Below, piece after piece: positions 25,792 to 46,318 of a DNA stretch of 64,000 bases. Below the pieces are notes generated by a model. It did no database searches. It was not told the DNA's origin and saw nothing but the letters and a program-made list of their open reading frames with translations. Numbering within the stretch: the first letter of the stretch is position 1; each line of letters begins with the position of its first letter. Source of the DNA: Duncaniella freteri (GTDB lineage: Bacteria; Bacteroidota; Bacteroidia; Bacteroidales; Muribaculaceae); the NCBI RefSeq assembly GCF_004766125.1, contig NZ_SJSA01000001.1, positions 2,046,001-2,110,000 of the forward strand, given 5' to 3'. A program made the position numbers and the translations under genes.

Positions 25792-25959
25792 AAAATATTT
25801 GAAGAAATTGCTGACACGAGGATCATCGCAGTTGCACAGCACTGTCTTACCACGAAAGTGTTCGCGGTAATGGCGCAGCTCATTGTTTATGTCTTCAAGT
25901 TGAGTATAAAACTCATCTTTCTTGGCTTCCTTAGCCTTATTCAAGTTCTTGTTTGCCAT
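25792..25959 (-). pseudogene. 5' fragment of an EcoRI-type adenine methylase
   Basis: The ATG at 25959 opens a frame beginning MANKNLNKAKEAKKDEFY, then TVLCNCDDPRVSNFFKYF, the conserved N terminus of the MT_EcoRI family of DNA adenine methylases (full proteins have roughly 300 or more residues). After 56 codons it runs into the IS21 right end, and the remainder is not on the other side of the IS, so it was deleted. The start codon lies 1 nt from the recombination site of invertible cassette A. The gene must have been phase-variable before it was cut (inference). Confidence 0.82.
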
Positions 25960-25960
25960 T

Positions 25961-26164
25961 ATCTCTATCCAAGAGATTGTGATGGCAAACAAAATCGTCT
26001 AAATCAATAAAATATCGCCATAGGCTGAGAGCGTTTGCTAAACAAACTCTACCTATGGCGTTTCTATTTTCGTTTCAAAATGAAATAATGCTGTTACAAA
26101 CGGCGTTATTATTCAGGATATTGACTAACTTTGCATTTTGAATAAGTAACTCTTGGATAGAGAT
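25961..26164. promoter_or_regulatory. Invertible promoter cassette A
   Basis: Perfect 15-bp inverted repeats at 25961-25975 and 26150-26164 (CTCTATCCAAGAG core on the left) enclose 174 bp. A promoter -7 box TAACTTTG (26126-26133) reads right, 17 nt before the right core. TTGCTAAAC occurs 60 nt inside the left site (26035-26043) and 11 nt outside the right core (26173-26181). In the present orientation the promoter points away from the methylase start at 25959. Inversion would place it about 40 nt upstream of that ATG, a textbook ON state. The left site is embedded in a larger palindrome, GTTTGCCAT / ATGGCAAAC. Confidence 0.75.
26016..26070 (+). terminator. Hairpin with T-rich tail inside cassette A
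   Basis: CGCCATAGG (26016-26024) and CCTATGGCG (26052-26060) form the outer stem, with GTTTG / CAAAC around CTAAA inside; TTTCTATTTT follows. It would stop rightward transcripts in the present orientation and leftward ones after inversion. Confidence 0.6.
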
Positions 26165-26208
26165 TTGGACGTTTGCTAAACATTCTTGCCAATCGTTGTT
26201 ATATATAA

Positions 26209-27195
26209 TCACTCAAATTCTTCAAATGGAATACACAACTGGTGTACTTGCATGATATCCTCTAAATTTACTACTCTGTAATCCGTAATTTCATTACTCT
26301 CACAAAATGAGTTTATCTTTTGAAGATTCTGATTCTTAAAGTCACTAAATTGCCATTGTGCATCTTTGAACTTTAATGCTAAATATTGTATATATGGCAC
26401 ATCTACATCTGATAAGGATAAACCATATATACAAATATTTTTTACTTCATCCATTGTCCCTATAAAATCAGCGAACCTATGTAAGAGCGTATCAACAGGT
26501 TTCCTTTGTGCGGCAACACCACTGATAGCCGCGTCCAGTGCAAGTTGTTCATGGAGTTCTTGTCCTACTGCGTTATCCTCATAAAATTGAGCAAGCTCAT
26601 CCGAAGATATGTCTTCTGGAGGTTTGGGCAATTCAATACTGTTCAGTTGTTGGAGTTCATCAAAACTTTTCCCATGCCCTAAAATAAACTCCTCGTCATA
26701 ATCAACACAACCATGAATGTGTAAAATGTGTTTAGGATTGATATTATATAAATTTTCCAGCGTTAGAGTGTAGTTGAAATTTACAAAGAGAGCCTCTTTA
26801 GCCTCCAATTTTATTTTTCTGGCATATACCGGTGTATTCAGTTGAATAATCCAATTATGGAAATCTTGTCTAAGAGAACAGAAAAGTCCCTCTAATTCCT
26901 GTTCGACTGCGATCTGAGCATCATTCCAAGTCCTATCGCAGTGTTCAGACATCAAATCTGGCTGATTCTCGAAAGCAATACCTCCACTATATTCTATAGC
27001 ATTTAGGGATGCCAATTGGTTTTCAAAGTCTTTCCACCAATCAGAATCACAATCACCATAAATTTTATCAAACTGATAGAGTAAATCGCAATCATTTTCG
27101 GACAGCCATTCTCGGAAATTTCCATAGGAACTATTTATTCCATGATGTAAATCAAATCCGTTCCCGATAATATATAAACTGCTGATTGTAGCCAT
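26209..27195 (-). CDS. abiH: AbiH-family abortive infection protein
   Basis: 328 residues. The N terminus LYIIGNGFDLHHGI, then SYGNFREWL is the hallmark of AbiH, with the later motifs LFVNFNYTLTLENLY and HIHGC typical of the family. AbiH proteins block phage growth by abortive infection; the mechanism is not known in detail. It is a single gene in the strip between the invertible cassette and the small genes at 27207-28483. The start is clear (MATISSLYIIG). Confidence 0.88.
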   Translation of the reverse strand: MATISSLYIIGNGFDLHHGINSSYGNFREWLSENDCDLLYQFDKIYGDCDSDWWKDFENQLASLNAIEYSGGIAFENQPDLMSEHCDRTWNDAQIAVEQELEGLFCSLRQDFHNWIIQLNTPVYARKIKLEAKEALFVNFNYTLTLENLYNINPKHILHIHGCVDYDEEFILGHGKSFDELQQLNSIELPKPPEDISSDELAQFYEDNAVGQELHEQLALDAAISGVAAQRKPVDTLLHRFADFIGTMDEVKNICIYGLSLSDVDVPYIQYLALKFKDAQWQFSDFKNQNLQKINSFCESNEITDYRVVNLEDIMQVHQLCIPFEEFE

Positions 27196-27206
27196 AGCTA
27201 ATAGAT

Positions 27207-27572
27207 CTAATCAAATATGATTTTGCCTTTTGTATAACCGTAGTTGGATTCTATTATCAGAACAACTTTCTCTGAGAATGATGCCCATTCGTGACAATAG
27301 CGGGTTTCAATACATAGATCAGTGTCTTTTACTTGATAGAGATTGTCCCCAATTTTCTTTACCTCAACCACATACTTGCCCTTGTCCACCTTTGTTGGTG
27401 ATAGGATATATTCAACGTCAACGACCTTATCATATCTGCCGACAGCCTTCGTGCCAGATGTCGGTTTGATTACTGAGTAGAATTCGGATATGTCATAACT
27501 GCTTTCGGCATATGCAAAACGACACGACAATAGTAGCGATAAACAGAAAATTATTTTGCGGATATGTTTCAT
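27207..27572 (-). CDS. Secreted small protein, unknown
   Basis: 121 residues with a clear signal peptide (MKHIRKIIFCLSLLLSCRFAYA, cleaved near residue 22). The mature part is beta-rich with two Cys (LCIETRYC) that could form a disulfide. It lies upstream of abiH on the same strand with an 11-nt gap. No family recognised. Confidence 0.62.
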   Translation of the reverse strand: MKHIRKIIFCLSLLLSCRFAYAESSYDISEFYSVIKPTSGTKAVGRYDKVVDVEYILSPTKVDKGKYVVEVKKIGDNLYQVKDTDLCIETRYCHEWASFSEKVVLIIESNYGYTKGKIIFD

Positions 27573-27593
27573 GATATTGTTGGTTGCAAGATT

Positions 27594-28064
27594 CTATTTT
27601 CTCTCATTGTCCGATTGTGATTGAAGCATAAGCAATGTACGTCCGTCTCTTTTCCCAGCAAAGAATTTTAACAATACTTGGTTGAAGATGTTGTCAGGGC
27701 AAACGGAATCAAACAACGTCATGGATGACCGTAATTTTGCTGCATCCAATTCACCAAATATAATCTTTGCATCGTTTTCGTCAGATGCCAATAGAATGGC
27801 AAGGAGAGTGTTCATGTGGTCACTGAGAAGAGGATTCTCCAGATAATTTTTTGCCTCTTCAAGATTGGTAATCCCATAATAATTGGAATTATAGGTATGA
27901 CCCAAACCTCGAAGTTGGGGAAATATATACCAAATCCAGTGGGACTCTTTCCGACCGTTACAAATCTCGGCCAAGGCGGTCTCATACATATTTTCATGTG
28001 CCTTTACGAATCTGGTGATGTCGTCACTCCATTCGTTTTTCCATGAAGCGTGTCGTAATTGCAT
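27594..28064 (-). CDS. DUF1810 family protein
   Basis: 156 residues from the ATG at 28064 (MQLRHASWKNEW), preferred to 28088 because the family starts just before the conserved FVKAHENMYETALAEI. The signature GRKESHWIWYIFPQLRGLG and YYGITNLEEAKNYL is diagnostic. Members are cytoplasmic and of unknown function. It lies between envelope and defence genes and I infer no role. Confidence 0.85.
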   Translation of the reverse strand: MQLRHASWKNEWSDDITRFVKAHENMYETALAEICNGRKESHWIWYIFPQLRGLGHTYNSNYYGITNLEEAKNYLENPLLSDHMNTLLAILLASDENDAKIIFGELDAAKLRSSMTLFDSVCPDNIFNQVLLKFFAGKRDGRTLLMLQSQSDNERK

Positions 28065-28132
28065 TTTGTTGATTATAAGAAAGCACACCGGGAAGTAATT
28101 CCCCGATGTGCTTTCGGGTTTCTGTATTCGTC

Positions 28133-28483
28133 TTAATAATCGTATTCGCGAAGTGCCTGACGGGTCTCCTCTTTGAGTTCTTCAACCTGCCTATCAATGT
28201 CGGCATCGTTGAAGAGCTCATCATAGTCGGCACCTGCCTCGCGACATGCTTGGCGGAGTTCTGCTTTAGTCTCATCCGCTACACCGTCATACATCTCATC
28301 CACTTCATCACATGAGGAATAACTCCCGGAATATGATGGCGTAGAATACGACTCTGAAGAAGTGTCGTAGTATTCGGTAGAACCCGATGTTTCTTGATTG
28401 TTACTCTCGGTCGCTTGTTTGGAGTTACAGCCTGTTGCCATAACAGACAGCGCGACCATGGTTGAAATTGCAAGAGCTTTCAT
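28133..28483 (-). CDS. Small acidic lipoprotein
   Basis: 116 residues from the ATG at 28483. The hydrophobic leader ends SVMATGC, a lipobox, and the mature protein has a Ser/Tyr-rich linker and an acidic helical end (ADIDRQVEELKEETRQALREYDY). The longer frame to 28594 overlaps the Ca2+ ATPase gene and adds a poor leader. It lies 7 nt downstream of the ATPase stop and so belongs to the Ter operon transcript. Confidence 0.68.
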   Translation of the reverse strand: MKALAISTMVALSVMATGCNSKQATESNNQETSGSTEYYDTSSESYSTPSYSGSYSSCDEVDEMYDGVADETKAELRQACREAGADYDELFNDADIDRQVEELKEETRQALREYDY

Positions 28484-28490
28484 ATCAGAT

Positions 28491-31340
28491 CTATTTGAAG
28501 AGACGGTAGATTTCGCGAATCCAAAGAACGAGTGATGATGCTCCCACGATGATGAGGAGATCGAGCGCACCGGAGGGGTTGAAGCTCCAGTCAAGGGTAT
28601 GGAGCATGGGCTCTACATTGAAGAATTCGTAAGCGATTTCGGTTATGAATAGCTGGCCGATGACTATGATTGCGACTATTGTCCAGAATCCGCTGCTCAT
28701 TTTGAGTTTGAAAACGCTTTCGCCGGTTTCAAAGCTGCGGGCGTTGAACATATACCAGAAGTGAGTCCATACGAAAATTGAGAACAGTAGGGTCGCCTCG
28801 TAAGGTGTCATTTCCTGTGCTGCTCCAATGACGGTGTGGAACATCTGTGGAATGGAAGTAATAGTTGCATGGTTAAATAACCAGTAGAATCCGAGAGTAA
28901 TCGCGAAGAATATGAAGCCCACACTGCAAAGTTCCCACAACATGGAACTGGAAAGGATAGAGGCTTCGCGACGGCGAGGTTTTTCATTCATCACGCTTTC
29001 CGATGGGGGCAGAGATGCCAAAGCCATTGCTCCGAAGGTATCCATAATCAGGTTGACCCACAGCATCTGTGTTACGGTAAGCGGCGACTCTGTGCCCATG
29101 AATGAGCCGAACAGCACGAGGAAGCAGGCTGCCACGTTAACTGTGAGCTGGAACAGCAGGAAACGCTGGATGTTTTTGTAGAGTGAGCGTCCCCACATCA
29201 CCGCACGACCAATCGAAGAGAATGAGTTGTCGATGATAGTAATGTCGGAGGCCTCTTTAGCAACGGATGTTCCGTCGCCCATCGAAAGACCGACATGGGC
29301 CGTTTTCAGTGCAGGTGCATCGTTTGTGCCGTCACCAGTTACGGCAACAATCTCATTGTTTGCTTGGAGCGCTTCAACCAACCGCTTCTTATCCATCGGG
29401 CGGGCGCGGGCAATAATCTTCAGATCTCCGACACGTTCACAGAGTTGACTATCCGTAAGTTCTGCGAACTCAACACCAGTGATGATATTGCGGTCGGTGT
29501 CAGTCTCATCATTCCAAAGACCAATCTGACGTCCGATTTCCTTTGCTGTTCCGGGGGTATCGCCTGTTACAATCTTAACCTTGATTCCTGCGTCTATTAC
29601 CTCGTTTACGGCATTAGGAACATCTATACGAACCGGATCGGAAATAGCCACAATTCCGAGGAATGTAAGGCTTGTGGCAACGACTTTGCCATTTTCAATC
29701 GTCACATCCTTGTCGCCAAGTTCCTGATATGCGAAGCCGAGGGTACGCATGGCCTGATTCTGATATTCGAGAAGTTGTGCATTAACCTCTCTATCGGTTA
29801 CGCCACATGTATTTTTGCACATTCCGAAAACGATTTCGGGTGCGCCTTTGACGTAGAGGATATTTTTGCCGGTGGCTGACTTAACCACTGTTGCCATGTA
29901 TTTGCGTTCAGTAGTGAATGGCAATTCTTCAATGCGGCTTGCTTTGGTACGAAGTCGCTGATAATCCGCTCCGCGTTCTTTCAGCCATAATAGCAACGCG
30001 CCTTCTGTTGGATTTCCAAGAACGGTTGGTTTGTCACCTGTGAGGTCAAGTTGAGCGGTTGAGTTTACAGCAATACCTTCATATAGAACCTCATTTGAAG
30101 GTTCACCAAAGAAATTGGTCTTATAGACCTGCATCTGATTCTGTGTCAGTGTACCGGTTTTGTCGGTACAGATAACTGTGGTTGCTCCCATTGTCTCGCA
30201 AGCGTGCATCTTGCGCACGAGGTTGTTGGTCTTGAGCATTCGGCTCATACTGTATGCCAACGAAAGAGTAACAGCCATCGGCAGACCTTCAGGCACGGCA
30301 ACCACAATAAGCGTAACTGCAACCATCAGAGTTTTGAGTGTATGGGCGAGCAAGAGTGACCAGTCGGCGCTTGTTGCTTCAGGTGTAACCATAGAGAACG
30401 CACCTATCACCATCCCAAAGAAGATGATAAAGAAGCCAACGATTGTAAATATACACTTGGCTTTTGACCAATCTTCAAATTTCTTGATAACGAGCCAGAA
30501 GAATAGTGCAACAGGCACAATCAGAGTGTAGGCTTGCCAATTACTCCAACCGAGGAAATGGATAAGCTGACCAACGATGATAAGACCGGCGAAACCATAG
30601 CTGACATTGGTAATCCAATCTGCAAGGCCATCAAGCTGCTCATTGAGGGGAGTCTTGACACTATCATCAATTTGAGCTTCCTCAAAGACTTTGCCCATTT
30701 CAGTAGCATCACCCACTTTGAGAACACGCATAACGCCATGCCCTTCCATTACCTTTGTGCCACGCATAACGTGGTTTGAAGGATAGGTAGCATCTTTATC
30801 GAAGTGTGCCGGATCAGTTGTTTTGGCACAAAGCGGTTCTCCGGTAAGGGTTGATTCGTCAATGCTGAGGGTCACGGCATCGAGAAGTTCGCCGTCTGCG
30901 GGGATTTCATCGCCTGTATTGATGATGACTATATCCCCGGCAACAACATCTTTGCGAGGAATTGTTGTTGTGGTTCCGTTGCGCATCACCTCCACCAACT
31001 CATCATCATTTACCTGATTGAGGATTTGAAATGCCTTGTTGGCCCGCTGTTCAAAAATGAATGCGAGTGTCGTTGCAAGACCAATGGCAACGAAAATGCC
31101 GATTGGCTCAAAGAATACTTTCCAGTCCTGGCCCAATCCGAAATATTCATAGAATGAGATTCCGATTGAGAGGACACCTGCAACCAACAGGATAATGATT
31201 AACGGGTCAGAGAACTTGTCGAGAAACTCTTTCCACCACGGATCCTTTTCGGGAGGGGTAAGAACGTTGACCCCATTCTTTCTGCGGCTCTCCAACACTT
31301 CCGCATCGGTCAAGCCTGTGTAATGTTGTTTTTGTGACAT
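28491..31340 (-). CDS. P-type Ca2+-transporting ATPase (PMCA type)
   Basis: 949 residues. TGEP (166-169) is the actuator loop, PEGLP (350-354) the ion site in M4 and DKTGT (393-397) the phosphorylated aspartate. TGDGTNDAPALK and a set of ten membrane segments complete the P2 type. The order of domains and the PEGLP motif point to calcium export at ATP cost. Its place at the end of the Ter operon fits the calcium-binding TerD proteins encoded upstream. Confidence 0.92.
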   Translation of the reverse strand: MSQKQHYTGLTDAEVLESRRKNGVNVLTPPEKDPWWKEFLDKFSDPLIIILLVAGVLSIGISFYEYFGLGQDWKVFFEPIGIFVAIGLATTLAFIFEQRANKAFQILNQVNDDELVEVMRNGTTTTIPRKDVVAGDIVIINTGDEIPADGELLDAVTLSIDESTLTGEPLCAKTTDPAHFDKDATYPSNHVMRGTKVMEGHGVMRVLKVGDATEMGKVFEEAQIDDSVKTPLNEQLDGLADWITNVSYGFAGLIIVGQLIHFLGWSNWQAYTLIVPVALFFWLVIKKFEDWSKAKCIFTIVGFFIIFFGMVIGAFSMVTPEATSADWSLLLAHTLKTLMVAVTLIVVAVPEGLPMAVTLSLAYSMSRMLKTNNLVRKMHACETMGATTVICTDKTGTLTQNQMQVYKTNFFGEPSNEVLYEGIAVNSTAQLDLTGDKPTVLGNPTEGALLLWLKERGADYQRLRTKASRIEELPFTTERKYMATVVKSATGKNILYVKGAPEIVFGMCKNTCGVTDREVNAQLLEYQNQAMRTLGFAYQELGDKDVTIENGKVVATSLTFLGIVAISDPVRIDVPNAVNEVIDAGIKVKIVTGDTPGTAKEIGRQIGLWNDETDTDRNIITGVEFAELTDSQLCERVGDLKIIARARPMDKKRLVEALQANNEIVAVTGDGTNDAPALKTAHVGLSMGDGTSVAKEASDITIIDNSFSSIGRAVMWGRSLYKNIQRFLLFQLTVNVAACFLVLFGSFMGTESPLTVTQMLWVNLIMDTFGAMALASLPPSESVMNEKPRRREASILSSSMLWELCSVGFIFFAITLGFYWLFNHATITSIPQMFHTVIGAAQEMTPYEATLLFSIFVWTHFWYMFNARSFETGESVFKLKMSSGFWTIVAIIVIGQLFITEIAYEFFNVEPMLHTLDWSFNPSGALDLLIIVGASSLVLWIREIYRLFK

Positions 31341-31361
31341 ATGATTGTTGTTTAATTATTG

Positions 31362-31787
31362 TTATTCTTGTGGATTTTGCAAGGCTCTCGTTGATTCAAG
31401 AATTGGAAGATTGGTTTCCGTTGGCACATATATTACGGTCTTGTTGTTCAGGTCTCCTTGCTGACGCACCCATAGATATTGAATATAGGTTGGGGTAATG
31501 GAGCCGTTTTCAATTCGTATAGCCTCCGCCGCTCCTTTAGCGCGTTCAATTTCTGCCTGCGCGTTTAGTTTTTCGGCTTCCAGATTAGCTTTAGCCTCCT
31601 CAATTTTGATTTTACGGTTCTGTTCAGCTTTAGCAAATTCTGCTTTACCTTCCATTTCCTGCGACCATACATTGTACCAAGGACGGATGAAGGCCATAGC
31701 AACGATAAGAAGCACGATTCCTGCCACTCCCCATATTGCGCCCTTTATGAGTTTTGGGGTGATATTGATATTATTGTTGTTATACAT
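31362..31787 (-). CDS. Small single-pass protein with a stomatin-like coiled coil
   Basis: 141 residues. One transmembrane segment (~17-34) is followed by a charged coiled coil (~45-90: KIKIEEAKANLEAEKLNAQAE, shown in part) resembling the C-terminal half of SPFH/band 7 proteins, then IQYLWVRQQGDLNN. The SPFH core itself is missing. It probably oligomerises at the inner membrane beside the Ca2+ ATPase and the DUF4407 protein. Confidence 0.65.
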   Translation of the reverse strand: MYNNNNINITPKLIKGAIWGVAGIVLLIVAMAFIRPWYNVWSQEMEGKAEFAKAEQNRKIKIEEAKANLEAEKLNAQAEIERAKGAAEAIRIENGSITPTYIQYLWVRQQGDLNNKTVIYVPTETNLPILESTRALQNPQE

Positions 31788-31798
31788 AATTCTATGAT

Positions 31799-32776: not shown

Positions 32777-32780
32777 TTCT

Positions 32781-33350: not shown

Positions 33351-33480
33351 ATACGTCCGTTTTAGTTTATTTTGATGGTACAAAGTTACAACCTGAGCAA
33401 TCCTTAACATGGATTGTCGGAATGTTATAACCCATAGACATATATATTCTGCTTGATTCCATTGCAACCTTGCAGGTGTG

Positions 33481-34881: not shown

Positions 34882-34888
34882 AGGTCAT

Positions 34889-37104: not shown

Positions 37105-37113
37105 ATCAATTCA

Positions 37114-38595
37114 TCAATTGCTGATTATCTGAACAATTATTAGTCTTCCTCCATCTTTCTTTGACAAGAGAATTTTTCGACCTTCCGTCAAGGGCACGTA
37201 TCCGCCAATGGGAATTTGTTTATCATCTGTTTTGTCCCACATATCTGGGAGCCGGCGGTTTATGAGTATCCATTGTCCGTTATGGAAATGGAAATCTCCG
37301 ACAGGCTTTTTATCTTCAGCAGAAGTTTTCTCGTTGGCTACAACAAAACGATTTACATGCCACATATAAAGTGTCTGCTTGTCATATACCATCAGACGGT
37401 AATTCTCTGGAGTAAATTTACCATCGTTCCTTGGTGAATAGTAAAGATTTAGCACCGGAAGCTGGCCGTGGTATTCTGTACCACAGAACGGACAACGAGG
37501 CTTCATCTTATTATCAAAGACAAACCAGTGAGCTTCGCAGTTGGGATTTTGACATGGTTGCATTAAGTCAGTGGTTTTTACCAGTGCTTGCTCCCATTCA
37601 TCAGCAGTAGGGCGTCTTGACGGATCATGCAGAGCTGTAATAAATGCTCTGTCAAACAAATCTTTCAAGTATGGGCCACATATGGTATATGGTAATTTTG
37701 ATGGGTCGCCTTGTGGGAGTTCTGCTTTGCCAAGATTCTGAGGTTTTACTCTGTTTGACGTATCAGTAGGATGTTCTATGAAAAGTGCTTTCTCTCCCAT
37801 AGACATAGCCTCATCACGTTTTTCATCGTTAACATCGTGAACTTTTCCTCCTCGCAGAGGATGGCGGTAAAGCAGATTCATATAGACCATTACAGCGAGT
37901 GCATGTAAGTCCGTTGCTCTACAAGGAAGTTTCTTATTGGAGTCTCCAATCTTTAACTCACGGGTTTGCAGTACTTCAGGAGCGATAAAATCGGGAGTAC
38001 CAACAACTTCAGGAGGATACTTGCCGGGAACAACCAAGGTATCACAGTCTATTATGCAGGCATTACCCCCGGCAGGATCCAGAAGAACATTGTTATATGA
38101 TAAGTCAGAATGGGCTAATCCAGCTGCGTGTAAGCGTTTTACAGCACGAGCTATCTTGATTAACATATGAAAATGACTCAACCATGTACCCTTATCCTGC
38201 GGACGAAGATGTCGATTGCGTAACTTGGCAGAGGCAAACCATTTTCCATTTTTTTCTTTCCCTTTGAATGGTCCGTCAGCAAAGAAAAAGTGTGCATCAT
38301 ATGCAGGACATACCAATCCGAATTTTCCATTCCACTCAACAAGCTTTGTTGGCCAACAGAAAAGATTTTTCCAATACTCACCACCCATTTGGTTGAATAT
38401 TCTCTCACGATACAACCCAACGATATTATTAAGGCGATCTTTAGAATTGGCATCAATCTTCTCTCTGAAGAACAGGACTACTTCTTTCTTTCCCGGACAC
38501 CAATACATATCTTTCATACCGCCCTGAGCCGAAATCTCATTTATGAATTCGACCTGAGTATTATCGGATGCGGTTAGTTTTACTATATCTGCCAT
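37114..38595 (-). CDS. TerY-associated protein kinase with zinc ribbon
   Basis: 493 residues. The kinase-like domain (~25-330) has a catalytic loop HSDLSYNN (162-169), with Ser in place of Arg, and a metal-binding IIDCDT (181-186) in place of DFG, then GTPDFIAPEVL. At ~345-370 there is a zinc ribbon (CQNPNC, CPFCG). With the PP2C and VWA genes next to it, it forms the TerY-phosphorylation triad predicted for Ter systems: kinase, phosphatase and VWA/metal adaptor. Confidence 0.87.
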   Translation of the reverse strand: MADIVKLTASDNTQVEFINEISAQGGMKDMYWCPGKKEVVLFFREKIDANSKDRLNNIVGLYRERIFNQMGGEYWKNLFCWPTKLVEWNGKFGLVCPAYDAHFFFADGPFKGKEKNGKWFASAKLRNRHLRPQDKGTWLSHFHMLIKIARAVKRLHAAGLAHSDLSYNNVLLDPAGGNACIIDCDTLVVPGKYPPEVVGTPDFIAPEVLQTRELKIGDSNKKLPCRATDLHALAVMVYMNLLYRHPLRGGKVHDVNDEKRDEAMSMGEKALFIEHPTDTSNRVKPQNLGKAELPQGDPSKLPYTICGPYLKDLFDRAFITALHDPSRRPTADEWEQALVKTTDLMQPCQNPNCEAHWFVFDNKMKPRCPFCGTEYHGQLPVLNLYYSPRNDGKFTPENYRLMVYDKQTLYMWHVNRFVVANEKTSAEDKKPVGDFHFHNGQWILINRRLPDMWDKTDDKQIPIGGYVPLTEGRKILLSKKDGGRLIIVQIISN

Positions 38596-38613
38596 GTGAT
38601 AATTTTCAATCTG

Positions 38614-40035
38614 TTAGTAAAGGATAGCTATTGTCCTATCATCATGATTGCCTGGGCTCCAAAAATCAAGCCATTTAAGCAGTTGATTTTTTGAGTTCTC
38701 GTTGTCATCTGAGAAATCAACTTCATTTACGAGATTCTCCCAGAGTTCATCCCATTTTTCTTTCTTTGCAAGATTTGCGTCCGTCTCAAAGAATGGGTCA
38801 CTTATGCCATCTGTCATAAGCATCAATGCAGTAAAGTCCGGCACTATTGACATCTTGATGCGTGTTCTGTCTCTAAAAATTGATTCCATCGTCAAGAAAC
38901 GAGTTTGACCTGCATACTCTCCTCCATCAGGTTCGTTAAGCAACTTTATAGAGTCGGCATTTTTATCATAAATAGCTATTGCACCGTCTCCAACACCAAA
39001 AGATGCGACAAACCAGCCAAAGCTAAATTTACGACATACTGCGAGCAATAAAGTCGTGGAGAAATCTTTCAACACAGCAGGTTCACTGCATTCATCAACT
39101 TTTTTAACAATTGCACGATGCGCTTCTGTTGCTGCTTTGAACAATATCTCGTGAATCTTTCCCACAACAGGTTTCAGATTCTCTTGTGTTTGATTTTCAG
39201 CATACATCTTTACGACAGCTTCAAATTCTTCACCTTGTTCTGCAAGTTTTTCTTTGCAATACTGCTCTACTGTTTCACAAGCGATGCGGGAACCCTCACG
39301 CGAATATTTAGCAGAACCTGCGCCATCAGCAACTGCAAGAACATACCAACCGTTTTGAGCATTGAAGCTAACACGGAAATCATCGTCACGAGGTTTCCCC
39401 TCCTGCGCATGGCTACGACCTCTCTTGCTGGCCACTACGATGTCTTTCTGTGGCAATCCTTCAAATTCTGGCACAAGGACGTAATCATTTGCCTCATCCT
39501 CCTTCTGAAATGGCAAATCGGCAGGAACAGGTTTGGGTTCCCAAAGGTCACGTGGGTCAGGATTAAACGCTATATTGAATTTACGTTCAAGAATAGGATC
39601 TCCTTGTTCCCATCCTTTGACTTTAGCACAGAGCTTAAAGTCATAAGTTTTAGCTTCGACCGGAGTTCCCGTAAGAGATATTAGACCAGTCTCAATGCTT
39701 ATATTGTCCAATAATCCTGTTTCCTCTAATCCTTCAAACCAGACATCCTCATAATTGGACATATTCAAACTTACCTCTTGATAATACTCTGAGCCTTTCT
39801 TCCCATTTGGAAATACTATAGTAGCTCCATTGAGATTATTTTGTTCAATCACATAGTTTGCCATACGTTCTTCTTGATAGCGTTTCCATTCATCTTTGAT
39901 ACGCCAAGCCAGAAAATCATCAATCTGACTATTAGATGGAGATACTCCTATCCCTTGAAGCACCTCAACCACAAGCATCCGCCCGTTGTCAACGACAGTG
40001 CGAATGCGGCGTATGATTCGTTCTTCTCTTTTCAT
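38614..40035 (-). CDS. PP2C-family phosphatase of the TerY triad
   Basis: 473 residues. The first ~190 have no known motif. The PP2C domain (~200-470) carries RSHAQEGKPRDDDF, ADGAGS (the metal-binding Asp), DGISD and the final DDRT. It hydrolyses phosphoserine or phosphothreonine with two metal ions and should reverse the neighbouring kinase. It ends 19 nt before the kinase start. Confidence 0.88.
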   Translation of the reverse strand: MKREERIIRRIRTVVDNGRMLVVEVLQGIGVSPSNSQIDDFLAWRIKDEWKRYQEERMANYVIEQNNLNGATIVFPNGKKGSEYYQEVSLNMSNYEDVWFEGLEETGLLDNISIETGLISLTGTPVEAKTYDFKLCAKVKGWEQGDPILERKFNIAFNPDPRDLWEPKPVPADLPFQKEDEANDYVLVPEFEGLPQKDIVVASKRGRSHAQEGKPRDDDFRVSFNAQNGWYVLAVADGAGSAKYSREGSRIACETVEQYCKEKLAEQGEEFEAVVKMYAENQTQENLKPVVGKIHEILFKAATEAHRAIVKKVDECSEPAVLKDFSTTLLLAVCRKFSFGWFVASFGVGDGAIAIYDKNADSIKLLNEPDGGEYAGQTRFLTMESIFRDRTRIKMSIVPDFTALMLMTDGISDPFFETDANLAKKEKWDELWENLVNEVDFSDDNENSKNQLLKWLDFWSPGNHDDRTIAILY

Positions 40036-40038
40036 AAC

Positions 40039-41082
40039 TTATCCTCTTGTTCTGGATATATCAATACCACCTTCGGCAGTGCCAAGCATTCCTTCCATGC
40101 CACACCACGGGCACTTATTCACTGGACTCTCGCCAACGCAGAACACATTACCACACTCACAAGTAACCAATCCAAACTGATTACCACAGCAGGGACATGT
40201 CGGAGCCCCAACCAGTTCCATGGAATTGATTTTTCGGTTTACGTTTTTACCGTCTGATAGCTGGTCATATGCTTCTCCGTCTATTGGATATGCACCAACC
40301 AACTTAAAGTCCATCGCATTGAACATTTCGAGACCTTCAAGTTTATGGCTACGTTTCGCATACTTGATAAGGTACTTCTTTCCTGTTGTCTGGCATTTAC
40401 CTACAAGTACTGCAAAATTCTCATCAACTTTAATCTGCTTATTGGGGTCAACCTTTTCGAGATTTATGCCGTCGATGGGGGCAAGTTTCACTTCATCGTC
40501 ATTGTAGTCAGTTACAGACATACTGGTAGTTTTTATAGAGTCAGTAACCCATTTGAAGAAGTATTTATAAGATAATGCGTCACTCGGATTAAAACGTATT
40601 ATCTCACCCGTTAGCTGACCAAATAAGAGAGGATCAATATTATCCCCGATTGAAATCACAACCAGCTGAGTGCGGTTACGATACTTTTCATTCCAACGTT
40701 TTATTGCGTTAGTGGGGTCGTCCGTAGGAGTTCCATCAGTAAAAAGGAAAATAATTGGTTTCCAATCTCCTTTTTGCTCAACAGTTGTTTTTACAATATT
40801 TGTATCAATGTCTCTCATCAGGAATTCAAGGGCTGTTCCCAAAGATGTACCTCCACCAATTGGAATTATTGGAGGATAGAACTTGAATAGTTCGGTAAGT
40901 GGTGTCAGAGTCTGTGCTTTGCCTGCATATGCAATTACAGAGGCCCATGCAGTTTCCAAAGCATAAGGATCTGTGCGTAACTCTTGTATTATGTCACGCA
41001 TTCCTTTCTGTACTTGTTCAATTGGTTCTCCGACCATCGACTCTGATACGTCTATGACGAAATATATAGGTAATCTTCGCAT
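40039..41082 (-). CDS. terY: TerY-type VWA protein with zinc ribbon
   Basis: 347 residues. The VWA domain (~1-200) has the MIDAS site DVSESM with GGTSLG and FTDGTPTDD. The C terminus has two CxxC pairs (CPCCGNQF, CECGNVFCVG) plus CPWC, a double zinc ribbon. TerY-class proteins bind metal and act as adaptors of the kinase/phosphatase pair. It ends 3 nt before the PP2C gene. Confidence 0.87.
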   Translation of the reverse strand: MRRLPIYFVIDVSESMVGEPIEQVQKGMRDIIQELRTDPYALETAWASVIAYAGKAQTLTPLTELFKFYPPIIPIGGGTSLGTALEFLMRDIDTNIVKTTVEQKGDWKPIIFLFTDGTPTDDPTNAIKRWNEKYRNRTQLVVISIGDNIDPLLFGQLTGEIIRFNPSDALSYKYFFKWVTDSIKTTSMSVTDYNDDEVKLAPIDGINLEKVDPNKQIKVDENFAVLVGKCQTTGKKYLIKYAKRSHKLEGLEMFNAMDFKLVGAYPIDGEAYDQLSDGKNVNRKINSMELVGAPTCPCCGNQFGLVTCECGNVFCVGESPVNKCPWCGMEGMLGTAEGGIDISRTRG

Positions 41083-41090
41083 CGTTATAG

Positions 41091-41729
41091 TTATTGATTT
41101 ACTGGTTGATGAAATGTGCCCGGTGAGAGATATACTTGACCCGGACCGATTATTTTTAACATACTTAGTCCTTCTCCTCCTAAAAGGTTACCCAATGACC
41201 AGTTGGATGACATTTGACTTTCCGAAATTGAATGAAGTGCGAGGATATGATCTTCATCTACTTCTATAGTTTCACCCGGACGAAGACTTATTGAGATTGG
41301 AGTCCCTTTTGTATCAAGAAAGACAGTTGAATTACCTGATATTTTTTGTAGGAGCAACCCCATTCCTCCCACCAACCCGGCTATTGAGATTTTTGTGCTT
41401 ACATCAACTCGATTATTTGATGCCACATACACACTTCTATGGCAGATCATAGTTTCTCCAGTGATTTTTACAGGATGAAGTCCGTAATGACTGCCGATAA
41501 CGAGCTTCTTTGGTTGATTGCTTTTATTATATAACCTGATGATGAAGAGCGATTCGCCAGAAAGTTTTGCTCCTATGAGTCGACCCAAACCTGAACCATT
41601 AAAACTCAACTCTTTTTCTATGCCACTTTCAAGATAAATTAAAGCACCTTTTTCTACATAGAAATCCTCACCCGGAGATAGTATAATCTCCAGATGCTGA
41701 ACGAAATTTCCAACGAGTTTACAGTTCAT
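41091..41729 (-). CDS. AIM24 family protein
   Basis: 212 residues forming a beta-rich double-stranded fold. It has the family text GALIYLESGIEKE, GLGRLIGAKLSGESLFI and PGETIEVDEDHILAL. AIM24-like proteins are standard members of Ter clusters and may bind membranes or metal complexes; the function is not settled. It lies between two TerY-type VWA genes with gaps of 8 and 3 nt. Confidence 0.82.
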   Translation of the reverse strand: MNCKLVGNFVQHLEIILSPGEDFYVEKGALIYLESGIEKELSFNGSGLGRLIGAKLSGESLFIIRLYNKSNQPKKLVIGSHYGLHPVKITGETMICHRSVYVASNNRVDVSTKISIAGLVGGMGLLLQKISGNSTVFLDTKGTPISISLRPGETIEVDEDHILALHSISESQMSSNWSLGNLLGGEGLSMLKIIGPGQVYLSPGTFHQPVNQ

Positions 41730-41732
41730 AAC

Positions 41733-42368
41733 TTATACGATTAGATTAACTTCCTCTGGAGGTGGAGGTAGAACTAAATCTTCGGCTGAACCAACGCTTC
41801 GGTTACCAACACCGATTGAATCAGACACCCATTTGAAGAATTTTTTGAATCCGGCACTATCAAGTGTATCGAGCATATACACCTGTTCAGTCAGAAGTTT
41901 CAACGGTTCGGGCTTCGCCTTCATTCCAGCTGCACAGGCAACAATACTTGCAAATTTACGCTTCTTAACCTCATTTACAATATTGTTATATTCTTGTAAA
42001 TCCGAAGGCTTACCATCAGTTAACAAGAAAAGTAAAGGCATCCAATCTCCTTTGCGATCTGGAGTGATTAGTTGAACCTCTTTATCTACCTGTTCTATCA
42101 GCATTTTCAATGCAGCTCCTGTGTGAGTTGGGCCTGAATCGGGTGTGGTTATCTCAGGTAGCTGAAGATCTTCAAGCGGAGTCAGTGGTAGTATGCACTT
42201 AACATCCTTGTCAAATGTGATAATACTTATACAGGCGGATTCTAAGGCAAAAGGATCTTGTCGAAGACTTGACACCATTGCTTCAAGACCAACCTTCACC
42301 GACTCAATAGGTTCTCCTTTCATCGAGCCGGATGTGTCAATGAGTATATATACCGGTAGTCGTCTCAT
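41733..42368 (-). CDS. terY: TerY-type VWA protein
   Basis: 211 residues from the ATG at 42368 (MRRLPVYILIDTSGSM), chosen because both paralogues begin in the same way. The MIDAS motif DTSGSM, with TDGKPSD further on, marks a metal-dependent VWA fold. The tail is proline-rich (LPPPPEEVNLIV). It is 45-60 percent similar by eye to the next protein, so the pair arose by duplication. Confidence 0.87.
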   Translation of the reverse strand: MRRLPVYILIDTSGSMKGEPIESVKVGLEAMVSSLRQDPFALESACISIITFDKDVKCILPLTPLEDLQLPEITTPDSGPTHTGAALKMLIEQVDKEVQLITPDRKGDWMPLLFLLTDGKPSDLQEYNNIVNEVKKRKFASIVACAAGMKAKPEPLKLLTEQVYMLDTLDSAGFKKFFKWVSDSIGVGNRSVGSAEDLVLPPPPEEVNLIV

Positions 42369-42433
42369 AATAATTTGCAATAAGGGGTGATTGTTTTTTC
42401 AATCAAACCACCCCTTATTTGATGTTAATCAGT

Positions 42434-43072
42434 TTATACTACGATGTTAACTTCTGGAGGTGGCGGTGGAAGTTCGCTGAGTCCGGTTACTTCGCCAAAT
42501 CCATCTTCCACTTTCATTGAGCTTGTGCTGATAGAAGCAGATACCCACTTGAAGAAGGATTTAATTGTAGCGCTGTCAGCAGTATCGAGTTGAACCACAC
42601 ACTCGGTTATTTTTTTGAGTGTATCAGTATTGGCTCCCTGACCGGCAGCACAGGCTACGACAACACCCCATTTGCGTTTGTTGAAGTCATTCAGGCCTTT
42701 TTGAAGGTCATCAGTTGGCTCTCCATCAGTCATAATGAAAACCAATGGTTTCCAGTCGCCTTTTTGTTCTGCGGTTGTCTTTGTAACTTCAGCATCAGCT
42801 CTTTGAGCTAAAAGCGATAATGCGCCACCGAGAGCCGTACAACCACTTGCCGTTAAGTTGGGCTGCTGAAAAGATGACAACTCGGTAAGAGGGACATCCT
42901 GCTGAGCAGTGCTGTTAAATGTTATGACGCTGAGATATGCGGTTTCAAGTGCATAAGGGTCACTCCTGAGTGTTGACACAAGAATTTGAACACCGTTTTT
43001 GACGGCTTCAATAGGTTCACCATACATAGAACCTGATGTGTCAAGAAGAATGTAAACAGGTAATCTTCTCAT
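42434..43072 (-). CDS. terY: TerY-type VWA protein
   Basis: 212 residues. MIDAS site DTSGSM, GCTALGGAL and MTDGEPTDD are intact. It ends LPPPPPEVNIVV like its paralogue at 41733. Such VWA proteins are cytoplasmic and work with TerD proteins and the kinase/phosphatase pair. It follows the terD genes by 6 nt. Confidence 0.88.
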   Translation of the reverse strand: MRRLPVYILLDTSGSMYGEPIEAVKNGVQILVSTLRSDPYALETAYLSVITFNSTAQQDVPLTELSSFQQPNLTASGCTALGGALSLLAQRADAEVTKTTAEQKGDWKPLVFIMTDGEPTDDLQKGLNDFNKRKWGVVVACAAGQGANTDTLKKITECVVQLDTADSATIKSFFKWVSASISTSSMKVEDGFGEVTGLSELPPPPPEVNIVV

Positions 43073-43078
43073 ATTTCT

Positions 43079-43750
43079 TTATTTTGAATAGTCTTTCATG
43101 ACACGCGCCAACGTGTTGACAATAGAGCGGTCCGGGTAGGCATCACCGATGGCAGCGAATTTCCAGTCTCCGTTACGACGATAGAGTTTGCCAAGAATCA
43201 GTCCGCGCATTCCAGCACAGTCAGTCTTAGTTGCAACATCATACTGTGCGAACACCTCCTTGACCTTGGTAGGAGTACCCTCATACATTCTTATGTATGC
43301 GTAGGGTATTCCGGAAAAATCACCCTGATAGTCGTTGTTATTGTAGATGTTGAGAAAGAACACGATTGAATTGACATTGGGATTGATTTTAGTCAAGTCA
43401 ACAGTTATAATCTCATTGTCAAGACCGTCATCTCCTCCTTGGTCACCTGTAAGGTCGTCCCCGATATGATGAAGAGCATGGTCAAGTGTATCGAGTTTAC
43501 CGTTAGGCAAGCCAATGTTGCGGTCACCAAAACGATAAAGTGAAGAGTAGATGTGGTCGATAGGTTTTCCGTTTTGGTCAAACAGAAGGCAACTGAGGTC
43601 AAGATCGACATCTACGATAGAGGATGATAACCCAAAGAAAGCTTTCTTTGTCACCGCTCCCCAGTTGCAACCTACGCAAAACTGGGTAAGCTTCGAACCA
43701 TTGTTTTTTTCAAGGTTGATTCGCTGACCTTTTTCAAGTCTTATAGCCAT
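43079..43750 (-). CDS. TerD-family protein
   Basis: 223 residues from the ATG at 43750 (MAIRLEKGQRINL), the common start of the family; the frame to 43831 adds an unrelated leader. The calcium site DVDLDLS is followed by GGDDGLDNEIITVDL and KLYRRNGDWKFAAIGDAY. TerD folds bind Ca2+ with high affinity and respond to oxidative, tellurite and phage stress. Confidence 0.88.
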   Translation of the reverse strand: MAIRLEKGQRINLEKNNGSKLTQFCVGCNWGAVTKKAFFGLSSSIVDVDLDLSCLLFDQNGKPIDHIYSSLYRFGDRNIGLPNGKLDTLDHALHHIGDDLTGDQGGDDGLDNEIITVDLTKINPNVNSIVFFLNIYNNNDYQGDFSGIPYAYIRMYEGTPTKVKEVFAQYDVATKTDCAGMRGLILGKLYRRNGDWKFAAIGDAYPDRSIVNTLARVMKDYSK

Positions 43751-43763
43751 GTGTGATGATAGT

Positions 43764-44405
43764 TTAGTCTTTTGAACCGGCTGTGTAATTAAAGCCCCAG
43801 CCATAAGCCCGGTCACAGTCAGCGTGACCATTATGGAATGTTACAAGTTTCTTTACAGTGATGGAGTTATCTCCATTGAAATTGAGTTCGGCAATAGCAC
43901 AAAACTTTTTGTCACTGGTTTGCTGTCCCATTTTAACCTCAACAGTTTCTGTCCCTGGCACAGCAACCTTAACTACCGCATCGGTCTCAGCCCATCGAGC
44001 AGCACCTTCATAGATGAAGGTATATATAATCATCCGCTTAATGTCATTAACACCAGCTGGATTAACTGAAATATTTTCTCCTGATTGAGCATTTCCTCCT
44101 CGGTCATCTCCATTATGCCAGATATAAGGTGATTTGGTATAACATCCTTGACGAGTTTGTTGGTCTCTATTGCCTCCACGGCCATGAGAGAACTGTACGC
44201 CGTCAATCAGCATCTTTGAACCATCCCGCATTTCATAGAAACAACCGAGATCAAGGTCAATCGCACTCTTGAACATTCCGAAGAAGCCACCATTACCCTT
44301 ACTCCAGTCAAGATTGATGACAATCTCTCCGTTTAAGTTCGAGCCGGTTCGCTTTGTCAGGTCGATGCGGTGGGTATCACCACCTTTTTTCAGTTCTATA
44401 GCCAT
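43764..44405 (-). CDS. TerA/TerD-family protein, divergent
   Basis: 213 residues from the ATG at 44405 (MAIELKKGGDTHRIDL). The calcium loop is AIDLDLGCFY, with GDDRGGNAQSGE further on, a TerA-like variant of the TerD fold. The ending differs from its neighbours (YGWGFNYTAGSKD). It lies 13 nt upstream of the preceding terD gene in the operon. Confidence 0.83.
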   Translation of the reverse strand: MAIELKKGGDTHRIDLTKRTGSNLNGEIVINLDWSKGNGGFFGMFKSAIDLDLGCFYEMRDGSKMLIDGVQFSHGRGGNRDQQTRQGCYTKSPYIWHNGDDRGGNAQSGENISVNPAGVNDIKRMIIYTFIYEGAARWAETDAVVKVAVPGTETVEVKMGQQTSDKKFCAIAELNFNGDNSITVKKLVTFHNGHADCDRAYGWGFNYTAGSKD

Positions 44406-44406
44406 G

Positions 44407-45078
44407 TCATGTAAATTTAGCAACGAGTTCATCAAATTCGCCATGATGTCCGACACCAAGAGCTTTGATTTTCCATGTCCCGTTGTAACGATACAACTGA
44501 ACGAATTCTACTGAAGCGCAGGTTGAGAAGTCTTCGGTCAAGTCGTAGATAATTTCTTCTTGTCCAATCTCCTCATGTCCCTCAGAATATATACGGACGT
44601 AAGCATTCTCAACCTGCCCGAAATTTTGACCGCGATTCTTTGCATCATATATGCTTACACAGATGATAATCTTTTCGATGTCTGAGCGAACTTTAGAAAG
44701 TTCCATGTCGATAGTTTCGGCATCTCCTTCATCGCCTCCTTCTTCGTTATCAATTGAACCGATAACAGAAATTTCAGGATCAACAGGTCGCGACTGTGCT
44801 CTCATTTCATCATTGCTTCGCCATTCTGTATAAGGAACAATCTTGATTGGAGAAAGCAATTTGCCGTTCTCATCTGCTTTGAGCCTTTTTTCAGAATTGT
44901 AGAATACGAGATAATCATCAGTTGGAATCTTACCAGACGCATCCACCATAAAGGCGGATACATCAAGGTCGAAGTCATCCTTTGCCGAAGCGTCTTCTCG
45001 GACTTGCCAACCTAATCCGACTGAAAATTTTTCAAGTTTGATTTCGGTGGAACCGCCTTTTTGAATGCGTATAGCCAT
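44407..45078 (-). CDS. TerD-family protein with insertion
   Basis: 223 residues. MAIRIQKGGSTEIKL, calcium motif DDFDLDVSAFMVD, then an extra ~35 residues (KRLKADENGKLLSPIKIVPY in part) before the second calcium motif region GGDEGDAETIDMEL. It ends VQLYRYNGTWKIKALGVG. It resembles TerZ/TerF-type members. Stop and next start are 1 nt apart. Confidence 0.86.
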   Translation of the reverse strand: MAIRIQKGGSTEIKLEKFSVGLGWQVREDASAKDDFDLDVSAFMVDASGKIPTDDYLVFYNSEKRLKADENGKLLSPIKIVPYTEWRSNDEMRAQSRPVDPEISVIGSIDNEEGGDEGDAETIDMELSKVRSDIEKIIICVSIYDAKNRGQNFGQVENAYVRIYSEGHEEIGQEEIIYDLTEDFSTCASVEFVQLYRYNGTWKIKALGVGHHGEFDELVAKFT

Positions 45079-45084
45079 ATATGA

Positions 45085-45645
45085 TTAGTATGCGTATTTG
45101 TTTACAAAGTATTCCAGTCCTCCCTTGAAACCATTGCCAATAGCTTCAAATTTCCATTCGCCATTGCGACGATAGAGTCGGCCAAATTCTACAGCGGTCT
45201 CTACCGAGAAGTCTTCATCGAGGTCATATTTGGCAATTTCCTCATCAGTGAGAGCATTGTAGATGCGAATGTAGCTATTGCGAACTTGTCCGAAGTTCTG
45301 ACGACGATTTTCTGCATCATGTATGGTAGCAGTGAACAGGATCTCATTCACGCGAGGGTCAACCTTAGAAAGGTCAACAGTCAGAGTCTCGTCATCTCCA
45401 CCATCGCTATTGCCTCCAGTTAAATCATCGCCTGATGATTCAACGGCACTGTCGGGAGATTTCTGATTGTTGTAGAACACGAAGAACTCATCTGCCGGAA
45501 GTTTTTTGTTTTCACCAAGCATAAAAGCTGAGGCATCAAGGTCAAAGTCATAACCAGTACTTTCGTTGGGATCCCATCCCAAACCGACACCGACTTTCTT
45601 TAAGCCGATTTCGATACGCTGTCCTTTTTGAAGATTTATTGCCAT
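45085..45645 (-). CDS. terD: TerD, canonical
   Basis: 186 residues, close to the usual length of about 190. MAINLQKGQRIEIGL, YDFDLDASAFML (Ca2+ site) and GGDDETLTVDLSKV, with GRLYRRNGEWKFEAIGNGF at the end, match TerD throughout. It is the first gene of the 17-kb Ter operon. The promoter box is at 45681. Confidence 0.93.
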   Translation of the reverse strand: MAINLQKGQRIEIGLKKVGVGLGWDPNESTGYDFDLDASAFMLGENKKLPADEFFVFYNNQKSPDSAVESSGDDLTGGNSDGGDDETLTVDLSKVDPRVNEILFTATIHDAENRRQNFGQVRNSYIRIYNALTDEEIAKYDLDEDFSVETAVEFGRLYRRNGEWKFEAIGNGFKGGLEYFVNKYAY

Positions 45646-45680
45646 AATTTTAATTTTATAGTTTGTTGTTGATTACAATG

Positions 45681-45688
45681 CAAAATTA
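45681..45688 (-). promoter_or_regulatory. -7 box of the Ter operon
   Basis: TAATTTTG on the minus strand, 36 nt before the terD ATG, giving a leader of about 28 nt. I see no clear -33 element. Invertible cassette B begins 100 bp further upstream. Confidence 0.6.
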
Positions 45689-45787
45689 CAGACACAATCG
45701 GCCATCGGTTTATATTTTGGAATGTTTCAAGCAAGACCATTCAATGAGCAGTGATTGTGCTTGCAAGGTTTTAAGTCGGTTAGTCCT

Positions 45788-45976
45788 CTCTTGAAAAGAG
45801 TCTTGGATGACAATTATTCTGTTAACTTATACCTTCTTACGAATCAAGATAAACAGATATTGCTAAACAAAAATCTCACAACTGGTAAAACATTCATGTT
45901 GATTCCCATGATAGCTGTTCTGATTATCAATTATTTTGCTTACCTTTGCAATTGGTTAAGTATCTCTTTTCAAGAG
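45788..45976. promoter_or_regulatory. Invertible promoter cassette B
   Basis: CTCTTGAAAAGAG (45788-45800) and its exact complement CTCTTTTCAAGAG (45964-45976) enclose 163 bp. The -7 box TACCTTTG (45941-45948) reads right, 16 nt before the right core. TTGCTAAAC is at 45860-45868 (60 nt inside the left site) and 45987-45995 (11 nt outside the right core), the same geometry as cassettes A and C. In the opposite orientation the promoter would point at terD, adding to its own promoter. In the present orientation it reads into a short frame beginning MVAKRD. Confidence 0.7.
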
Positions 45977-46094
45977 ATTTGGATGGTTGCTAAACGAGAC
46001 AGGACATCGCGTGACGCAACTTGTGGCAACGTCCTTGACTATCTTGTATATGGTGTTTCGTTTCGTCATGCCGATATGGTTGTTGATAGTTAAC

Positions 46095-46292
46095 TCTAAA
46101 CAAGAGATTGGGATTTTTTAGTGCTCGCTGATAATCATGGAGATACGAATATCATCTCGTGAGATTTGCTCAACAAAGTGGCCATAAAGACTTTATATGT
46201 TGTAAAACATAATAAATTTGGTTAACGGTTTTAGTCCTCATTTCCAGATTTTTTCGTAACTTTGCAAACTGAATAAGTATCTCTTGTTTAGA
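46095..46292. promoter_or_regulatory. Invertible promoter cassette C
   Basis: TCTAAACAAGAGA (46095-46107) and its exact complement (46280-46292) enclose 172 bp. The -7 box TAACTTTG (46257-46264) reads right, 17 nt before the right core. A variant TTGCTCAAC is at 46166-46174 (59 nt inside the left site) and TTGCTAAAC at 46304-46312, 11 nt outside the right core. The cassette ends 62 bp from the recombinase gene at 46354, the likely invertase. Rightward it reads MLAKQN... into the recombinase terminator; leftward it would read a 37-codon frame at 46069-45956 (MTKRNTIYKIVKDVA). Confidence 0.75.
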
Positions 46293-46318
46293 GATTTGGA
46301 TGCTTGCTAAACAAAATA

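Follow-up and report, generated by a model that had tools for sequence, protein, structure and literature searches.

The 64,000-nt stretch of Duncaniella freteri DNA analyzed here (the window) contains three cassettes, A, B, and C, in each of which a promoter is enclosed by a pair of inverted CTCT-N5-AGAG cores, and these cassettes are very probably invertible promoters flipped by one family of tyrosine recombinases. On the sequence evidence, they would be phase-variable switches on a Bacteroidales conjugative element, and the flipping enzyme would be of the kind encoded at 46354–47556, directly adjoining cassettes B and C. What is new is the layout of an arm-like site, TTGCTAAAC, one copy of which lies 10 nt beyond the recombinase-side core and the other within the invertible segment, at 59 nt from the promoter-distal core. 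Our analysis suggests that a mobile-element integrase was converted into the flipping enzyme, which may favor the OFF state.

Cassette anatomy in the window

CTCT-N5-AGAG is present seven times in the window; six copies make up the three pairs, and the seventh, at 19213, is unpaired. The 5-nt centers of the left and right cores (Table 1) are exact reverse complements in each pair, and the interiors measure 174 (A), 163 (B), and 174 nt (C). In all three cassettes, TTGCT(A/C)AAC starts exactly 59 nt past the left core and a second copy starts exactly 10 nt past the right core, with the −7 box ending 16 (A), 15 (B), or 16 nt (C) before the right core. The original prediction, made from this sequence without database searches, had proposed three cassettes of one design with inverted CTCT-5 nt-AGAG sites, and this was borne out, the pair pattern being found at 8 loci in the D. 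freteri genome and at none with the reversed-pattern control. Its distance of 59–60 nt for the inner site proved to be exactly 59 nt, the outer element lies 10 rather than 11 nt from the core and the −7 box 15–16 rather than 16–17 nt. Absent from that prediction was a ATTTGGATG-like sequence on the right-hand side of both cores, which makes the sites asymmetric despite their palindromic arms.

The promoters of A, B, and C are all directed to the right, whereas the TerD genes (from 45645) and the methylase start read left, so all three cassettes would be OFF toward their likely targets. To the right, C faces the 3' end of the recombinase gene and A faces the 3' end of an AbiH-type abortive-infection gene (26209–27195).

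Table 1. Cassette components and associated genes in the window
Feature	Position	Strand	Remark
Cassette A left core CTCT-ATCCA-AGAG	25963..25975	.	
Cassette A inner arm-like site TTGCTAAAC	26035..26043	+	59 nt from left core
Cassette A −7 box TAACTTTG	26126..26133	+	directed right, away from methylase start
Cassette A right core CTCT-TGGAT-AGAG	26150..26162	.	
Cassette A outer arm-like site TTGCTAAAC	26173..26181	+	10 nt from right core
Cassette B left core CTCT-TGAAA-AGAG	45788..45800	.	
Cassette B inner arm-like site TTGCTAAAC	45860..45868	+	
Cassette B −7 box TACCTTTG	45941..45948	+	directed away from TerD genes (OFF)
Cassette B right core CTCT-TTTCA-AGAG	45964..45976	.	
Cassette B outer arm-like site TTGCTAAAC	45987..45995	+	
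Cassette C left core CTCT-AAACA-AGAG	46094..46106	.	
Cassette C inner arm-like site TTGCTCAAC	46166..46174	+	
Cassette C −7 box TAACTTTG	46257..46264	+	directed at recombinase 3' end (OFF for cargo)
Cassette C right core CTCT-TGTTT-AGAG	46281..46293	.	
Cassette C outer arm-like site TTGCTAAAC	46304..46312	+	
Tyrosine recombinase, 400 aa	46354..47556	-	Arm-DNA-bind_5, Phage_int_SAM_5, and Phage_integrase domains
Putative target operon of B and C: three TerD-domain genes, VWA genes, AIM24, TerY, PP2C, kinase	37114..45645	-	presumed operon, from same strand and close spacing
Open frame with N-terminal part of EcoRI-type methylase	25708..25992	-	PF13651 profile positions 1–53 of 345 only

Occurrence in the genome and among relatives

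The D. freteri genome holds two recombinase copies at 100% identity and one at 67%. There are 30 occurrences of CTCTN5AGAGAT in it and 3 of the reversed pattern (sites flanked by AT at both ends score twice), and a looser script applied to 12 stretches of this genome plus the window gave nine pairs, all complementary (9/9). A second copy of the element carries a C cassette with the same center, AAACA, together with a B-like cassette with another center and different cargo, including a tubulin-like match that is weak and scores under the curated cut-off. Chromosomal cassettes are located ahead of a SusC/SusD pair, between two NusG-type (UpxY-like) genes that share 99% identity, and ahead of other loci. 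The cassette between the divergent NusG-type genes (L020:6945-8394, C2:659563) has flanks forming an approximately 98% inverted repeat of about 600 bp, and either of two polysaccharide loci could be driven from its one promoter. At C1:88862-88993, a recombinase fragment with a stop codon adjoins the cassette at C1:89145, which suggests that cassettes may outlive their recombinase. Around the 67% identical recombinase copy (C2:277330), no inverted pair of at least 11 nt with a spacing of 100–400 nt was found within the surrounding 3.5 kb.

For related recombinase loci, the best 80 of 419, mostly from Muribaculaceae or other Bacteroidales, were used. These contained 46 pairs 140–260 nt apart, all complementary (46/46), and an exact pair lay near the recombinase in 41 of the 80, so that relatives of the recombinase, which the original prediction had placed beside two cassettes, often have such a cassette too. 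Across 118 relative genomes, the pair pattern was present in 29 (control, 4) and the recombinase, at E ≤ 1e-80, in 41. Co-occurrence in 71 genomes of the same family was marked, with both in 25, the cassette only in 2 (G033 and G055), the recombinase only in 13, and neither in 31 (Fisher P = 1.1e-7); the G033 cassette adjoins a fragment of a more distant recombinase (L204). The search of relatives for the cassette pattern that the original prediction had proposed gave matches in 147 of 397 family genomes compared with 7 for the control, the 147 including false matches of repeat type, among them G407 and most of the places in G418.

The combined set used below was assembled from the window, loci elsewhere in the D. 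freteri genome, the 80 recombinase relatives, and another 43 stretches, with some loci represented twice. Removing the non-complementary pair and exact duplicate interiors left 95 cassettes, among which L050 and L100 (99% alike) were both kept. A recombinase match lay within 1.5 kb in 59 of the 95 (linked cassettes), most such loci having been selected by recombinase. The consensus of the 91 cassettes with a clear promoter was ..TTTGCA....AATAAGTAT-CTCT-N5-AGAG-ATTTGGAT... Four loci from order-level relatives (L271, L272, L273, and L284) show the same layout with another core (TTTCTTAGACAGAGGGA). At L205:4876-5064, a cassette lies between divergent paralogous genes of 991 and 988 aa (35% identity).

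Complementarity of the crossover centers

The exact complementarity of the centers inside each pair, which the original prediction had reported for the window (3/3), extended to 98 of the 101 pairs of the combined set; two pairs had one mismatch (L171 and L196) and one was non-complementary (L187). Counting distinct pairs only, 93 of 96 were exactly complementary while the centers themselves varied. Between close homologs, the center had changed at both sites together (TGCTT in L182 vs. TGCTA in L189; TACCA in L031 vs. TGCCA in L032), and tandem duplicates in L194 had TATTA and TACTA, again changed at both ends. The outer bases of the center were mostly T...A (228/280 readings), which leaves mainly three bases variable.

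The original prediction had further held that centers are private to each cassette, keeping the switches independent, and this part did not stand as a rule. Cassettes within one genome shared a center in 12 of 142 pairs (8.5%), compared with 378 of 9588 (3.9%) between genomes; by permutation, the probability of at least this many was 0.016 and that of so few or fewer 0.99. This test covered 140 cassettes in 73 genomes, with centers transcribed among the matches listed, 16 of the genomes chosen as cassette-rich, and one center from the own genome. Dispersed repeats or chance matches were dropped by eye (G418 all but one, G407, G345:C22, G237, and G090), as were pairs with non-complementary or direct centers (G012 first pair, G097:C27, G055, G146:C4, and G186:C52). 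By eye, some look-alike cassettes inside one genome retained the same center, and AAACA is common to both element copies of D. freteri. As a rule, the two centers of a pair are complementary, with no enforced difference between cassettes.

The window cassettes are two-site units with three different centers, unlike a shufflon, in which at least three sites of one locus share one crossover sequence. L187:4885-5287 has three sites with one center, two direct and one inverted, between divergent paralogous genes of about 1100 aa (36% identity), resembling a small shufflon-like array. L102 has a pair with a 6-nt center (TAGGTA) 137 nt after the recombinase.

Signs of inversion among homologs

The promoter pointed toward the recombinase in 51 of the 59 linked cassettes and away from it in 8. 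If exchange takes place inside the core, the recombinase-side core of the flipped form is expected to be flanked on either side by TCCAAAT-like sequence. Such flanking was clear in L051, in L067, and in the second L065 cassette, and weak in L078, L083, and L098. The recombinase-side flanks of L051 and L193 were colinear (80% over 278 nt), and L051 aligned without gaps over 172 nt to reverse-complemented L193 with a score of 98.5, compared with 34.8 as is. Six of the eight away-pointing cassettes (L051, L067, L078, L083, L098, and L177) matched the best-scoring facing cassette better when inverted, and two (L188 and L204) matched better uninverted. Contigs ended 0–2 nt past a core in 3 of 73 cases (L044, L055, and L079; expected 0.035, P = 7e-6), as would result from mixed orientations in the sequenced population breaking contigs at the core; L089, which ends 9 nt past a core, was left out of this count. 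As read from these comparisons, both orientations occur among homologs, that is, at the loci of other strains. Inverted forms and conserved sites, two things that the original prediction asked of related genomes, were both found, the latter as the pattern in 147 of 397 family genomes.

Arm sites and OFF bias

Reading away from the core with at most one mismatch, TTGCTAAAC was located at +10 outside in 31 of the 95 cassettes and at +59 inside in 28. The inner copy fell at 57–61 in 41 cassettes, with any other place represented at most twice. We designated the copy 10 nt outside the recombinase-side core as O and that 59 nt inside the promoter-distal core as I. At up to two mismatches, 31 cassettes had O and I in OFF-type arrangement, 6 had both in ON-type arrangement, 25 had I only, 10 had O only, and 23 had neither. 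The one reversed I was that of L018, a cassette whose promoter direction was corrected by hand and which stands outside the ON/OFF count. L305 is ON, with both arm sites around one core. Loci L271 and L273, with their different core, retain exact TTGCTAAAC outside and inside, which supports arm sites that are read by one domain while another binds the core, although the domain comparison given below was not significant.

In L194, L204, and L207, the recombinase match begins near residue 100, the arm-binding domain apparently being missing, with cassettes alongside. Joint loss of the arm domain and arm sites was considered for these loci and set aside, as the cases are too few and partly a local-alignment effect.

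Judged by gene direction, the OFF:ON ratio was 44:8 for linked and 10:12 for unlinked cassettes (P = 0.0012), leaving out the 21 of 95 cassettes with genes on both or neither side. By arm-site status, the overall ratio was 33:5 vs. 21:15 (P = 0.008), a comparison confounded with recombinase linkage. Both cassettes were OFF in each of the plasmid loci L288, L290, and L291, the three of 12 plasmid loci in which direction was tested; eight more are 99.9–100% identical to and colinear with L288, and L294 is likewise apart from an insertion, so these loci are mostly one plasmid and not independent.

Recombinase, neighboring genes, and mobile element

The window recombinase matched PF17293, PF13102, and PF00589, all above the gathering score, and thus has the arm-binding, core-binding, and catalytic domains of an IntCTnDOT-type enzyme. 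R249, K275, R348, H371, and Y380, positioned by their motifs in the sequence, form what we take to be the expected catalytic set. Pfam matches in the window also included TraG, TraM, TraQ, primase-like domains, and a phage-type lysozyme, and the window reads as part of a Bacteroidales conjugative element. Another arm-domain tyrosine recombinase lies near an RloB-like gene and an AAA gene (9238–14278).

The likely start codon of the methylase (25959–25957) is 3 nt from core A, and the remainder of the gene was not seen in the window. Flipped cassette A is likely to be the promoter of this remnant. In relative L082, which has the same center as A, the recombinase, the cassette, a whole-domain methylase, and a GmrSD/HNH gene stand in a row. 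An IS21-type element with IstB and Mu-type transposase genes (23172–25481) adjoins the methylase remnant by cassette A. The genes beside the cassettes are thus TerD/TerY/PP2C/kinase genes and a methylase remnant, with no antibiotic-resistance cargo among them. With these, a Ter-type operon and a methylase/endonuclease locus join capsule and SusC/D loci beside such switches.

Proposed mechanism and alternative explanations

In the proposed mechanism, the catalytic part of the recombinase would bind the palindromic half-sites (CTCT/AGAG, often CTCTT/AAGAG) around the 5-nt crossover center. An odd-length center cannot be self-complementary, so each site has polarity, and complementary centers would result in inversion. 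The N-terminal domain probably binds the arm sites O and I. In the OFF state, there would be one arm site per core, as in the attL and attR attachment (att) sites of integrases; in the ON state, both arms would flank the recombinase-side core (attP-like) and leave the cargo-side core bare (attB-like). With attP × attB-like ON and attL × attR-like OFF forms, ON-to-OFF flipping would be expected as the integrase-like, favored reaction, and such directionality fits the OFF bias of linked cassettes. In the orientation read here, the TerD/TerY/PP2C/kinase genes would not be driven by cassettes B and C, and flipped A would drive what is left of a methylase gene, namely its start. Taken as a whole, we regard this account with considerable confidence as the best explanation, although its directional att logic is tentative. 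Slightly more speculative is the reading that these invertons are integrase att pairs turned gene switches, with OFF as the default, ON perhaps needing an excisionase-like factor or signal, arm-less cassettes flipping both ways, and center identity alone setting the partners, from two-site switches to three-site arrays such as L187.

Several observations weigh against this account. An exact pair was not found nearby for 39 of the 80 recombinase relatives, several because of a contig end or masking; 13 of the 71 family genomes had the recombinase without the cassette pattern; and after removal of exact duplicates of recombinase-selected loci, only 9 of 40 pattern-selected cassettes had a recognizable recombinase within 1.5 kb. 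The counts across relatives are not phylogenetically independent. Three pairs (G097:C27:16319, G146:C4:150532, and G186:C52:5450) have identical centers in direct orientation, at which exchange would excise rather than invert. As for the arms, 23 of the 95 cassettes have neither site, the outer site was recognizable in 8 but not in 10 of 18 further cassettes from distant relatives, and the inner site of L271 and L273 lies about 53 rather than 65.5 nt from the core center. Arm-site quality did not significantly track the N-terminal rather than the catalytic domain, and among linked cassettes only, the arm-site effect on OFF bias was not significant (32:4 vs. 12:4, P = 0.23). The OFF bias itself is equally explained by selection against expression.

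Flipping may indeed have no intrinsic direction, the OFF excess reflecting selection against costly cargo expression and TTGCTAAAC only aiding synapse assembly or stability. We rate this only a little below an even chance: the arm effect is not significant within linked cassettes, and passages of PMC8748976 report predominantly ON promoters in only 4 of 96 cases, ascribed to fitness cost. The O/I geometry, however, matches integrase arm sites and sets the two states apart in an asymmetric manner. In B. fragilis, moreover, parts of PMC4747536 describe a single recombinase with a local promoter about 1% ON and a distant one about 60% ON in the inoculum, and a plasmid-borne enzyme that abolished the local bias, which fits an enzymatic component. 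It is also plausible, though we do not favor it, that the neighboring recombinase flips only B and C, with A and the chromosomal cassettes being flipped by other recombinases or being frozen relics. Consistent with this, cassettes C2:659563 and C2:759036 (L020 and L021) lack arm sites, tyrosine recombinases other than this one are numerous in the genome (22 matches), a recombinase fragment adjoins C1:89145, and 31 of the 40 pattern-selected cassettes have no such recombinase nearby; yet A is of the same core type and its arm sites are perfect, and its homolog in L082 directly adjoins a recombinase of the same family.

The unlike centers might have arisen through selection for privacy, isolating the switches of one genome. 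Neighboring centers do differ in ten tandem modules (the window, L023, L029, L036, L041, L042, L194, L288, L290, and L291), several of them mutually homologous, and the recent duplicate in L194 has a center that differs at both ends. Nevertheless, sharing within genomes is not below chance, as the permutation showed, and L187 has three neighboring sites with one center, so selection of this kind is unlikely. Far less probable still is that the inverted repeats serve to attenuate transcription or to bind a regulator at their palindromes and are not recombination sites. The palindromic cores could form RNA hairpins, and, according to parts of PMC4747536, transcription in B. fragilis was lower where more repeats separated a promoter from its gene; but hairpins need no center that matches a partner about 180 bp away, as 98 of 101 do, and homologs occur in both orientations, with contigs ending at the core.

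Comparison with known systems

The IP-ARG-1 to -3 classes of Bacteroidales, as described in passages of PMC8748976, resemble the present arrangement in having a recombinase just upstream of one or two adjacent invertible promoters on conjugative elements, with a TANNTTTG promoter that is mostly OFF. Similar repeats across those classes and an origin from glycan loci are reported there. Their cargo consists of antibiotic-resistance or glycan genes, in contrast to the TerD/TerY genes and EcoRI-type methylase remnant found here, and the passages concerned make no mention of arm sites or center covariation. Among the literature titles and abstract openings listed, none named arm sites in promoter inversion or center covariation in Bacteroidales, although we do not claim absence from print.

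In B. fragilis, the tyrosine recombinase Tsr19/BF2766 flips a local OFF-biased and a distant unbiased promoter (parts of PMC4747536). One enzyme may also serve the several D. freteri cassettes, as the original prediction supposed; one site type occurs at nine own-genome loci, and the co-occurrence in 71 genomes is 25/2/13/31. The Tsr19/BF2766 gene, unlike that of the window recombinase, adjoins mpi. Mpi of B. fragilis is likewise one enzyme acting on many promoters; it is a serine invertase, whereas the window enzyme is a tyrosine recombinase. Parts of PMC11892184 describe groups of invertons in gut Bacteroidota that have repeat motifs in common and are linked with tyrosine recombinase groups close by. 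Those motifs may include the present core, and Muribaculaceae go unmentioned in that paper's main text.

pMMCAT-type plasmids of Bacteroides and Parabacteroides encode a recombinase with 49.5% identity; two inverted-repeat cassettes in tandem come after it, with UpxY and polysaccharide genes beyond them. One of these cassettes (L288a) has the inner arm-like TTGCTCAAC. Unlike here, the core arms are changed (TTTC-TGAGA-GAAA and TCTC-CATAA-GAGA, as read), and the outer arm site is not recognizable.

The CTnDOT integrase tolerates unlike coupling sequences. On indirect evidence, no such tolerance is apparent in the present pairs, 98 of 101 of which are complementary. The IntCTnDOT subgroup, as described in parts of PMC8138268, likewise consists of Bacteroidetes integrases with an N-terminal arm-binding domain, which in their case contacts subterminal arm sites. 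These integrases move elements, whereas the window recombinase appears to invert promoters. For the recombinase family of gut Bacteroidales conjugative elements and plasmids, our analysis provides a concrete site anatomy of core, polar center, and two arm sites, and offers a possible mechanistic reason for the mostly OFF state of element-linked promoters, which published work ascribes to fitness cost or unknown regulation.

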